The translations under genes and the position numbers were made by a program. 64,000 bases of DNA, from NCBI GenBank assembly GCA_018292915.2, contig JACVVK020000220.1:503001-567000 (forward strand), given 5' to 3'. Of this stretch, positions 1,134 through 60,071 are shown in pieces. This DNA comes from Batillaria attramentaria (taxonomy: Eukaryota; Mollusca; Gastropoda; Batillariidae). The notes under the pieces are model-generated. The model was not told the origin of the DNA, ran no database searches, and worked only from the letters and a program-made list of their open reading frames with translations. The number at the start of each line of letters is the position of its first letter. Positions within the stretch are counted from its first letter, which is position 1.

Positions 1134-4100
1134 ATGCAACGACACATTGCTGTGGTGAGTACTCACAATTTGCAAGTATCCAGCCACTGCATGATGACGA
1201 TAGCTTGTAAAAGGCTATTTGTAAATTCCATTTCTTTGGTTCGTCTATATAAAAAACAATTGTTTAAAAGATTGTATATTGCTCAGGAGAGAGAGAGAGA
1301 GAGAGAGAGAGAGAGAGATTCGAAACCTTTCACACACTACACGCACACACACCATTGGTTACTTTAAGTTTCCACGTGGCTTTACGGGCGCCTGTTTACT
1401 TGAAATATTTCTTAAATAAACTTATTAGTAGTTCTTTGAACGTGAGACAGTGCCGTCTACTCGGCGGTTGACCGCGTCACAAGCAAGATGGCTGACTCCT
1501 TCAGACCTAAATAAACATCTTGAAAACTGGGCCCCAAGGTATCTCAACAACACAAAGCTGCTCTAATGGAGCTTCCAAGGCTTCCTATTGCTTACTCGAA
1601 TTCAGTTTATGCACATTTTGATTTGTGTTCCAGCATTCATGGATAGCTTGCTTGCTGTTGCTTTCTGGTCCGGTTTACGCAAAAGGTATGAATGTCAATC
1701 AATAATCTGTTTCTGTCCCATGATTATGTTCTCGTCAAATCTAGTCACCACACCGCCAGGCTAGACTCACACCGCAATGCTCGGTAGTGCAAGAGATTAG
1801 GAGGTCAGGGTTTTTAATCTTGACACAAATTCAAGCTTGCCGTATTTCCATTCAGGGTAAGAGCAGGGCAAGAGTGGTTGCGAGCATTGAAGTTTTTTTA
1901 ACTGTCGTTTTTACAATTGCTGTCGGTAATTGCTATTAATTAAACGATTCTGGTCCATTGGGAGCAGAAGAGCGGTGGCATTTCGTACCGAAAGGAGAAG
2001 GAACAGAAAAATAACAGCAAAACAATGCCCACATTTTGACCAAACTGTCCACTGAGACTCATGCTTTAGACGACCTGACAAAAGGATGCTGGAAGGAAAA
2101 AAAAAACTGCGCTCATGTCTTCACCTGTTAACTGTGTTGTTTGATTTTTCCCTGGTGAAAATGGTGTTTGTCTGGACGTTTTCTATTTACTTTCTTTAAA
2201 GGAAAGAGAAAAACAACACCATCTAAGCATGCATTCATATTAAAGACACATTATTTGTCTTAACTTGAAGTCGTTTTTCTTTAAAAGATTCTTAAACTCG
2301 TAGATCGTTTTTGGTTGTTTAGCAAAATAATATTTCTTAGTTTTTGGCTCACTTGTGGAACAAAGTGAGTCTGTGTAATATTACTAAGATTGTAAGGCCC
2401 TCAGAGCTAGATCCCCAGGGATAGGCGCCCTATTACTATTATTATCATCATTATTATTATCATTATGAAATACATGCACAGTTAGGCATGCGTTCAGCTG
2501 ATTGGACGTAGGAGCCTCTGACATTGTGGTTACCACTCTTTGCCTGGTAGCCGAGATTTTCTCGTTTGCACGGCCACGAAACGTCAGTGTGTTGCATTCG
2601 GAGCTCTACTAATCTTTTCAACTAACTATTTCGAGCGCACAGGCGCATCTACAGGTGCAACTGTTCAAAAGCAGATGTTTATGTGAGTAATAGTAGCAGT
2701 GGCACCTTTAAGAAAGTTTTGTTTTGCTTGTGTATTTTTGAATATAGATATAGGATCCTGGTGCAATGCAACAGCATATGGAGGAAGTGCGACGATAACA
2801 TGCCACTTCAAACGAGACTTGAATCTTATTCAAAAGGACTTTACTCTACAACACCGACGGTTCAACCCTTCTTCCATGATACCTGGTATCTGTGATGCTA
2901 TTCTTCCCTTGTCATTTTCTGAAACAGAAGAGTACTTGTCAATTAATGAGCATTAAAATTTGATGTTTTTCTCACAGAAACAGTCAGTTCATAAGCCTAA
3001 ACATGACCTGTTTCGTGGAGATAATTGATATTCACACACACACACACACACACACACACACACACACACACACACACACACACACACACACACACACACG
3101 CACACACACACACACACACACACACACACACACACACACACACACACACACACACACACACACACACACATGTATATCTTGTAAACTTTTTTTGTTGTTG
3201 TTAAAGGCGAAATCATAGAATTTCCTAGAAATTTCAGAAACATTTCTTGTGACGGCAATTACGACGACGTGACAGGAGCAAAAACAGACACTTGCTACAA
3301 CTGCTATTCTTTGCCAATGTTGTTAGTAGCCTGTTTGAATTACGGACACAAGTAAACCAGAACATGGCAGGTTCTCCTGCCGTTTCTTTCACTGCAGTTG
3401 CTAGTGTTCCTGAAAATGCAAATATTTTTTCTTCCTTGTGCAGTACTGAGCTGTTCTTGGGAAAGTGAGACAGCAATGCGATGTGTTGAGGAAGTGGGAT
3501 ACACTTTCAACAAAACAGTATCAGACCATTTCCAAGTGAATATACCTCAAGCCACAAGCGAACACCACGATGGGCAGTACATCTGTCAGATAGTTACAAA
3601 TCCAGACGGCGATCTATTCCTGCCATGTGAACTGAACATTGCCGGTACGTGCAATGATAGTTTACGCTATATGAGCACGTTCATGTGGACAGCCTTCAAA
3701 TAATACATTGTACGAGCAGGTTGGTGGGTAGGGGAAGGAAACGGACCATGGACTGTAAAATGCTTTTAAAAATACGCCAAATGATATACGAGTTTTAAAA
3801 GTTTAGAAAGTAAAAGACAATCTTTTCCATCAAGTTTTCAGTAAAATGAATTTTAGTTCAGAGAATGTGGAAAAATGGAAGCAGTAGAGAGCAAACTTAA
3901 AGTTGCATTTTGTATGTAACATAGATACGTAAAGGTTAGGTGACTTCAGCCAGTTTGCAAATCTTCAGGTATACCCCATCAACCGACAGATATCTACGTT
4001 TCCAATTCTACATTGGAAAGTGTCACTATTTGCTGGCAAGCTCCACCAGATACAAGGGAAAGAGTGTCGTATCGTATACGATATAAGCGGGCAACGCCAA

Positions 4101-57870: not shown

Positions 57871-60071
57871 ATGGGAAACCTATTGCGGATGCCAGTTCTT
57901 GCGTTGTTCCAAAGTTCGATGCTGACTTTTTTAGTAGAAGCAGGTAAAACTGTCTTGACAATAAGTACGCACGAACGTATATTTTGTCACTCACTAGGTA
58001 CTGGCGGCGAAACACTACGTCCAAACAAATATTATACAAAGAATACAACTTCTGTCAAAGTCTGTCAGTTTGCAAAACTGAAATACTACATCTCTGAATG
58101 TATTTTCTCTCTACTTTTCATATGCTGTTTAATAAGTTCTGGCAAATTAGCCGCATCTTTATCAAAGAAATTTATTACGTATTACACGTTCTTTCTTCAG
58201 GGGAAGTGCCTTCCTGCAAAGTTGATCCCGTATATCAAGGTGAAAACGCGACTATACTGTGTTTATTAAACGCCTTGAACACCAGCACTGTCGAGAAATA
58301 TGACACTACTAACTGGACGTTCCAAGGTAAAAAAAATCAAACAAAAAAACACCTAAACTAAACACAAACAAACAAACGAACAACACAGAAACAAAACCAA
58401 TCAACAAATAATAAAAGGAAAAACAAACCACAAACACAAAAATGCAAAACAAAAACAAACCACACACACACACACACACACACACACACACACACACACA
58501 CACACACACACACACACACACACACACACATGATTTATTGATTTTATTAATTTTGTTGTGGAAATTTTTTTTCAGGAAGAAAATTCTATTAATGAATCGT
58601 TTTTGCGAAATGAAGATTCTGTGAAGGTTTCATTTTTCTAAGAACAAACAAAACAAAACAATCACAAACAAATATTTTACAAAGATTTCAGTATCATGTG
58701 TACAATGGAAATGGTGTGTTTCACGTATTGCAGCTACATTGTTAAACTGCTGGCAACCCGATGACAAGCTTTGGTGTCATTCAAAAGAGGGATATCCATA
58801 TGGAGTTACATCAAACAACCAGCTATTCGTGGTGATCGTGAATGCTTCGAAAAAGGATGCCGGTCAATACGCGTGCCAAGTTTCAAACAAAAAGACAAGC
58901 AGTGCCCAGATTTGTAGTTTAAACATTAAAGGTAAATCTGTGGTAAGGAACAGAGAGCGAGCGAGAGAGAGAGAGATGATGATGATGATGAAACTTTATT
59001 TCTCAACGGTAAAAGTTTTGACAGAGAAGTACGTCAGTTTGCAAACTTGCCTTTGCTAATACTACGAAAGATTAGAGAAAAGCAAATAATAAAAAGAGAG
59101 AAGAGAGAGAGGTTCTTCTGGTAACATAATTATGCTCCAGAAGGTCTCCACACATAGCTGTAACACTTGCCGGAATCTTTATTTTTCAGGAGGACTGGGA
59201 CGGTCTGTAAACGACACAAATGTTTAACTGCTATCTAAAAAAAGACCTATCACAAATGTTTTTTTTGAAAGTTCTGACTCACTCGTTTATCCTGTTTATC
59301 TTTTTTCAGCCAGGAATTCCGTACACCATCTTAATGTCAGTGATTTTGTTTTAACGGACCAGTATAATTGTAATTGGAAAAACGTGTTGCTTCGTTTCTC
59401 CTTGTCTAGAGAGAGACGGCCCTATGTCAACCAGTACACAAAACCCAGCTAAGCCAACAGAACAAGGTCCAGATCGAGAATACCGGCCTACATTAAATGG
59501 TCAGAATTTGATGTACGCTAGCTTTCAACCTATTCATGAATCATTTTCTAGACAGGTTAATGCACAAAGAACTAACTTACAGAAAAAAATGTCATCTGAG
59601 GTTTCTGGGCAGAGTCATGCATTTGACTGCATTAATCAACGGACCAGATTAACAAGTGTTAGCTAACAGTTTCCTTTTTTGAATGCAGTAAATCGCTTTT
59701 GAAATTATTGGTTTGGGAAAGGTCGGCTACTATACATTTTTGCACAAACTAAGATTCTGACTGTTCTGGAATGTACAAAGAGCCCGACATAAGTTCGTTC
59801 TTCCATATCCTCTCTGCATATTTTGCAAGCTCTCGTGCCTAGAATTATTAATAAATGTGTGTGTGTGTGTGTGTGTGTGTGTGTGTGTGTGTGTGTGTGT
59901 GTGTTGTTGTTGGTTTTGTTGTTGTTGTTGTTGCCCACAGGGGGTCAGATCGCAGGCATAGCAACTGCGCTGTGTGTGATTCTGGCGTTCATCGTTGGTT
60001 GCGTCATCAGAATACTGAGGTCAGTGAACCTGGAAAACAATTTGGACGCAATACTACTATTTGAACAATAA
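57871..60071 (+). CDS. receptor gene F: one Ig domain + transmembrane + short tail
   Basis: Exons 57871-57943 (signal peptide after an acceptor at 57859), 58201-58326, 58734-58931, 59410-59499 (donor could be 59466) and 59941-60071. The model encodes 205 residues with all introns in phase 1. The Ig domain (25-132) has ENATILC, a LLNCW motif, an extra Cys before EGYPY, AGQYACQV and a closing ICSLNIKG, matching A, C and D. Four sequons are present (NAT, NTS, NWT, NAS). A Thr/Pro-rich stalk (133-162) leads to a transmembrane segment (IAGIATALCVILAFIVGCVI), then RILR and a short tail without tyrosine, ending at the stop. The first three exons are firm. The stalk exon is chosen by phase, and the last exon could instead splice onward at ACTGAG|GTCAGT. 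Confidence 0.7.
58461..58530. repeat. (CA)n microsatellite
   Basis: CA array in gene F's intron 2, between the two Ig exons, after an A-rich (AAAC)-type block. Confidence 0.99.
58974..59030. mobile_element. (GAT)n plus shared dispersed-element tail
   Basis: (GAT)n GAAACTTTATTTCTCAACGG and TAAAAGTTTTGACAG, like 44558-44640. In gene F's intron 3. Confidence 0.65.
59190..59227 (+). CDS. possible alternative last exon of gene F giving a secreted form
   Basis: A good acceptor (TTTATTTTTCAG) at 59189 entered in phase 1 gives GLGRSVNDTNV and a stop at 59225-59227. Joined to 58734-58931 it would yield the Ig domain without a membrane anchor. Splicing evidence is lacking. Confidence 0.3.
59857..59905. 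repeat. (TG)n microsatellite before gene F's last exon
   Basis: TG array followed by (GTT)n, ending at the acceptor CCCACAG (59940). Confidence 0.98.

Follow-up and report, generated by a model that had tools for sequence, protein, structure and literature searches.

Planorbid snails carry receptor clusters that decide parasite resistance; in Biomphalaria glabrata, eight of the 11 PTC2 genes are described as single-pass, with 166-530 codons, and a TMEM154 domain is described in several PTC1 genes (PMC7494358). In Biomphalaria sudanica, LG16 and LG5 are described as carrying hyperdiverse clusters of single-pass transmembrane (TM) genes with immunoglobulin (Ig), FN3, C-type lectin and TMEM154 domains (PMC10875847). 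For Botryllus fuhc, FcoR is described as having tails with tyrosine motifs, and fester and uncle fester as being without known signalling domains; an FcoR consists of a V-type Ig domain, a sushi domain, two C2-type Ig domains, a TM segment and a tail able to carry an immunoreceptor tyrosine-based inhibitory motif (ITIM) or a hemi-immunoreceptor tyrosine-based activation motif (hemITAM) (PMC12065747). The locus considered here lies in a window of 64,000 nucleotides from the caenogastropod snail Batillaria attramentaria (contig JACVVK020000220.1, positions 503,001 to 567,000), in which four genes of one Ig family (family 1: A, C, D and F) are interleaved with two genes of a second, unrelated Ig family (family 2: B and E). 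It is probably a recognition-receptor cluster, immune or self.

The original prediction for this window was an interleaved cluster of the two families on opposite strands, at 1134-60071, with relic exons between the genes. The arrangement stands for the intact genes: family 1 is all on the plus strand, with first Ig exons at 2754 (A), 27102 (C), 42017 (D) and 58201 (F), and two complete family-2 genes, B at 25020-19630 and E at 52149-48083, are both on the minus strand. The end of the cluster at 60071 proved to be the stop codon of gene F. The start at 1134 found no support, the earliest supportable exon being at 2754 (or 2748; the acceptor is weak). A profile scan of the window (five profiles, six-frame translation, pieces of at least 15 residues, with five Markov-generated windows as control) gave no extra copy of family 1 and a single relic in place of the several predicted, a decayed family-2 Ig1 exon at 36358-36661, with borders set by eye. 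As this relic is on the plus strand, opposite to B and E, the strand rule is limited to intact genes. It is shortened and its frame is broken around a T/G homopolymer, where the break may be a sequencing error; its assignment is supported by the profile (E 2.8e-6, C-terminal part), by tblastn (E 0.005, N-terminal part) and by the reading frames. Profile matches of members used for building a profile arise by construction, and pairwise relationships were therefore tested by tblastn and by shuffled alignments. Queries for these, and for the Pfam, homologue and profile searches, were draft models, which depart from the final ones in B's signal peptide and in 1-2 residues at exon joins.

Strand segregation is itself weak evidence, as two of 64 random six-gene arrangements show the same, and the relic breaks the rule. 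In the gene models the neighbours A-B and D-E are convergent and B-C and E-F divergent. All intron borders are GT-AG, and the intron phase is 1 except for one phase-2 intron within Ig3 of both B and E. TM exons were modelled in A, B, D, E and F, so that single-pass transmembrane genes are clustered here. The order A,B,C / D,E,F (+,-,+ / +,-,+) was considered as a duplicated triad, which is not claimed because the four-sequence family-1 Ig tree leaves all three topologies in the 95% set.

Family 2 is modelled as having a signal peptide, three Ig-type domains, one TM helix and a tyrosine-containing tail. Gene B (514 residues) has an unbroken frame, GT-AG borders at six of six introns, and homologues. 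In the final model its exons, on the minus strand, encode the signal peptide (25020-24936), Ig1 (24636-24280), Ig2 (23400-23131), Ig3a (22521-22368), Ig3b (21991-21849), the stem and TM helix (21302-21081) and the tail with its stop (19943-19630). Gene E (477 residues), also with an unbroken frame, is modelled on the same strand as signal peptide (52149-52071), Ig1 (51766-51419), Ig2 (50941-50666), Ig3a (50125-49930), Ig3b (49558-49410), TM (49222-49079) and two tail exons (48426-48277, then 48175-48083 with the stop), the last of which matches the tail of a related protein, P0002. Alternative signal exons at 28720 for B and 56698 for E are less likely. Searched against the window by tblastn, B and E matched each other in Ig1 (4e-18), Ig2 (7e-27) and Ig3b (5e-16), and the predicted structures of Ig1 and of Ig2-Ig3 match Ig folds.

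Of 6,650 candidates in a homologue search with B, without its signal peptide, six matched at E <=0.001. Four of these are from Batillaria attramentaria, the others being P0002 and one CD22-like protein of a fish. The proposed molluscan cluster is supported by the four Batillaria matches, which carry no functional name. No Biomphalaria protein was among the matches of B in a search that needs shared exact words. Family 2 appears to be multicopy in Batillaria, since family-2 segments occur twice each in P0001 and P0003 (by tblastn) and in P0004; all three come from automatic gene prediction and are disordered in part. P0002 has an uninterrupted coding sequence on a 2,111-bp contig, and its homologues in the window are spread across several exons; the contig is read as a spliced transcript, and as such it supports the exon order Ig2, Ig3a, Ig3b, TM, tail. 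The first residues of P0002 align to the end of Ig1, yet could be its own start. Around a DDYLxP segment its tail agrees with the final exon of gene E (none of 500 shuffles was as good).

In the models of family 1, two exons encode a single V-like Ig domain, and FN3 was detected only in A. By Pfam, C (ig and V-set) and F (ig) are above cut-off for the Ig superfamily and A, B, D and E below; A and D are assigned to it because they are homologous to C and F. In global alignments with 200 shuffles each, all six family-1 pairs gave z from 6.8 to 14.7, and by tblastn on the window A matched C at 8e-10, and D and F more weakly at 7e-4 and 3e-4. In gene A the Ig domain (2754-2885 and 3444-3644, +; 5' border at 2748 or 2754) rests on splice sites, frame and homology to C, D and F; it is V-like, with six cysteines and a V-set score of 15.1 bits, below the cut-off of 26. 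It is followed by FN3 in two exons (3969-4157 and 4438-4536, +; PF00041, 38.2 bits, cut-off 25) and by a TM exon with a basic juxtamembrane stretch (6778-6960, +), placed by hydropathy and a splice-site scan. The signal exon of gene C, beginning at the ATG (26382-26445, +), was found by a signal-exon scan and is followed by Ig exons at 27102-27242 and 28286-28477 (+; PF00047, 27.4 bits, cut-off 21.8; V-set, 26.1 bits, cut-off 26). A scan of 28.48-42 kb for its TM exon gave only a dinucleotide-repeat reading, and gene C may be secreted or truncated, or its TM exon may have been missed. The intron after its signal exon holds a perfect 94-bp tandem duplication (26502-26689), the copies being 100% identical. 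The Ig exons of gene D (42017-42139 and 42612-42818, +; splice sites, frame; V-set 18.4 bits, below the cut-off of 26) are without the cysteine preceding the conserved W that is common to A, C and F, and a candidate TM exon follows at 43820-44088 (+), with a stop at 44088 if unspliced beyond. Gene F has Ig exons at 58201-58326 and 58734-58931 (+; PF00047, 23.5 bits, cut-off 21.8) and, from the TM scan, a TM exon at 59941-60071 (+) with a tyrosine-free tail of ~20 residues and the stop.

At E 0.001 no relatives of family 1 were found, either with gene A alone (231 candidates) or with the four-gene alignment (1,670 candidates), again by a search that needs shared exact words. In the PDB, the 60 top-ranked of 249 sequence matches, and likewise the 60 top-ranked of 406, were generic Ig and FN3 proteins, including pIgR and NITR, and such matches are too weak for a claim of family membership.

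The two family-2 genes have diverged unevenly. Protein identity between B and E is 32% in Ig1, 48% in Ig2, 46% in Ig3a and 64% in Ig3b. Synonymous sites are saturated in Ig1 and Ig3a and show a divergence of 1.22 in Ig2 and 0.51 in Ig3b, and the same codon is used at 14 of 37 shared residues in Ig1, 22 of 43 in Ig2, eight of 23 in Ig3a and 27 of 30 in Ig3b. Fisher tests of Ig3b against Ig1, Ig2 and Ig3a gave p of 1.2e-5, 8e-4 and 3e-5, for a comparison picked after the data had been seen. At the DNA level, B and E are 88% similar across 110 columns of Ig3b and 80% similar across 102 columns at the 3' end of Ig2. The 120 bp flanking Ig3b align poorly, the 5' side lying within its 100 shuffles and the 3' side just above. 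As protein-level purifying selection alone leaves synonymous change unlowered, conversion or exchange at the scale of exons, and most strongly of Ig3b, is favoured as the process that would have nearly homogenised Ig3b of B and E. This suggests that the outer domain diversifies while the Ig3b exon converts.

The tails of family 2 contain four tyrosines in B, three in E, seven in P0002 and five in each copy of P0004; the 20-residue tail of F has none. No canonical ITIM was found in six tails (B, E, F, P0002 and both copies of P0004), with the tails of A and D left out and immunoreceptor tyrosine-based activation motifs (ITAM) not searched for. This weakens the suggested direct resemblance to paired receptors of vertebrates. 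YxxP and YxN sites in the tails resemble the consensus of Crk- and Grb2-type sites, and the tyrosine tails may signal. A conserved Crk-type motif is not claimed for YxxP, which was significant in P0002 alone and stays a hint. Two of six tail pairs were above chance, E-P0002 (better than 500 of 500 shuffles) and P0002-P0004b (0.016). A search for extra tail exons of E and B with the Batillaria and P0002 tail pieces gave nothing convincing.

From the architecture, multicopy state and divergence of these genes we infer a recognition or immune role, as had been proposed, the immune one being most likely. On haemocytes or epithelia, the outer domains would bind ligands from microbes, parasites or the snail itself. 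Family 2 would then signal, its tail tyrosines being phosphorylated and docking SH2 adaptors, and family 1, whose Ig domain is membrane-anchored in A, D and F, would serve as a receptor that binds ligand, as a decoy or as a partner chain. The repertoire would expand through duplication and inversion and the outer domains diverge, while the membrane-proximal Ig3b exon would stay alike via exon-scale gene conversion or exchange.

Several observations weigh against this interpretation. Codon-level constraint could lie behind the low divergence of Ig3b, and the similarity of B and E is not restricted to one exon, since the 3' end of Ig2 is fairly alike too and the effect therefore spans more than one exon. 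Three of the five structure models of Ig1 were poor (pLDDT 40-49). Tested against shuffles in four tails, YxxP was enriched in P0002 only (p 0.0055) and not in B, E or P0004a, and the remaining tail pairs were within chance (B-P0004b 0.28, B-P0002 0.60, E-B 0.55, E-P0004b 0.23). In structure, Ig2-Ig3 also comes close to some ordinary adhesion and muscle proteins: the top Foldseek matches of the P0002 model were neuroplastin, titin and NCAM2, and sDscam heads the VIA list. Sequence matches of the B ectodomain in the PDB, at E up to 1, were NCAM2, Dscam and VEGFR2. These matches fit a locally duplicated adhesion or neural-recognition Ig family of the neuroplastin/basigin/Dscam kind, without immune or self role. 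Such an origin is possible but unlikely: family 2 has several divergent copies, its relatives at the search sensitivity used were limited to Batillaria, the P0002 contig and one fish CD22-like protein, and the tails of B and E are unlike, 0.55 of shuffles being as good. Adhesion and neural Ig proteins are conserved and mostly not known to be arrayed in such fashion.

That the locus is mostly dying, B and E being its only working genes and several other members pseudogenes or fragments, would account for the relic Ig1 exon at 36.4 kb, the missing family cysteine of D, the TM exon not found for C and the signal exons not found for A, D and F. It is nevertheless improbable, as every exon modelled in A, C, D and F is open and has usable splice sites, and signal exons are small and easily missed by the scan. 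A gamete- or mate-recognition cluster of fast-evolving paired surface proteins is very improbable: reproductive proteins also typically diverge and duplicate rapidly, but nothing in the window points to reproduction, and tails with tyrosines are more typical of signalling receptors.

Within a recognition cluster, the positions of B and C allow a more specific proposal. B (start 25020, -) and C (start 26382, +) are head-to-head with start codons 1,362 bp apart, and the intergenic region at 25021-26381, as bounded by the start codons of the models, is a candidate shared promoter region. Its observed/expected (o/e) CpG ratio of 0.80, against 0.74 in the window, indicates no island. E (start 52149, -) and F are also divergent, with 6.05 kb from the start of E to the first Ig exon of F (58201, +). 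By analogy, each family-1 chain, without a signalling tail, might be partnered with a family-2 phosphotyrosine co-receptor from a gene lying head-to-head with its own. Ig3b, kept uniform by gene conversion, would perhaps form the surface for pairing, with diversification in the outer Ig domain. Such a two-chain system, which would be an independent invention of the logic of Botryllus FF/FcoR, is an improbable refinement.

Elsewhere in the window, eight long open reading frames (ORFs; 259 listed) gave no Pfam match above cut-off. An ORF remnant at 38855-39783 (+), also without Pfam match, resembles by eye the end of a reverse-transcriptase ORF of a long interspersed nuclear element (LINE). A family of dispersed 87-nt repeats resembling short interspersed nuclear elements (SINEs) has five copies (6360, 9059, 16977, 51046 and 62337), of which that at 51046-51132 ends ~105 bp upstream of the Ig2 exon of gene E. 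A tandem array with units of ~294-303 bp (34226-35244) lies where the CpG ratio falls, to an o/e of 0.19 for the 34-35 kb bin. The sequence also holds 51 dinucleotide arrays no shorter than 24 bp, of which 41 are AC/GT and which together make up 4.1% of it; the window looks like animal DNA.

Caenogastropods are a very large snail group and the first hosts of many flukes. Among the papers listed by a literature search, judged by titles and the starts of abstracts, there was neither an interleaved two-family Ig receptor cluster nor parasite-resistance receptor clusters in caenogastropods, which is no proof of absence with most subscription journals outside the search. If the proposed reading is true, the locus offers a defined gene set for asking whether binding and signalling chains are paired in snails, and whether a shared interface is preserved by conversion at exon scale during the divergence of recognition domains.

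Among described systems, the oyster receptors CgIgIT and CgIgIT2 are likewise molluscan Ig receptors in immunity, a cited title naming IgIT-mediated signalling; CgIgIT2 has five extracellular Ig domains where snail family 2 has three, and the available description of the oyster proteins mentions no interleaved cluster (PMC11999971). FREP and CREP (VIgL) are also gastropod immune proteins of the Ig superfamily, but they join it to a lectin or fibrinogen domain, whereas the present genes carry a membrane anchor (PMC10875847, PMC9334734). Pfam listed neither a C-type lectin nor a fibrinogen domain for the six gene models, those of A, C, D and F being incomplete. TMEM154 was below its cut-off of 30.3 bits in E (11.9) and P0002 (11.8), and was not listed for A, B, C, D or F. 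The locus resembles the B. sudanica clusters, as far as these are described, in being a gastropod cluster of single-pass genes with Ig alone or Ig and FN3 (gene A), and differs in having two unrelated families on opposite strands (PMC10875847). B and E are within the length range given for B. glabrata PTC2, and both loci are small clusters of divergent single-pass genes; PTC1/GRC and PTC2 are defined by haplotype polymorphism and parasite resistance, whereas the window represents one haplotype (PMC7494358). The locus is of the same general kind as the Biomphalaria clusters, from which it differs by its two unrelated families and by having no TMEM154 or lectin domain shown. Like Hydractinia Alr, for whose candidate genes tails with tyrosine motifs are reported, it would be an invertebrate recognition locus; ITIM/ITAM are reported for Alr, and no ITIM was found in the six snail tails (PMC12065747). 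The closest functional analogue is the Botryllus FF/FcoR pairs. In the snail no sushi domain was listed by Pfam and the six tails hold no ITIM (hemITAM was not searched for). In both, as far as Botryllus is described, two receptor families lie side by side, and in the snail B and C are head-to-head at 1.36 kb (PMC12065747).

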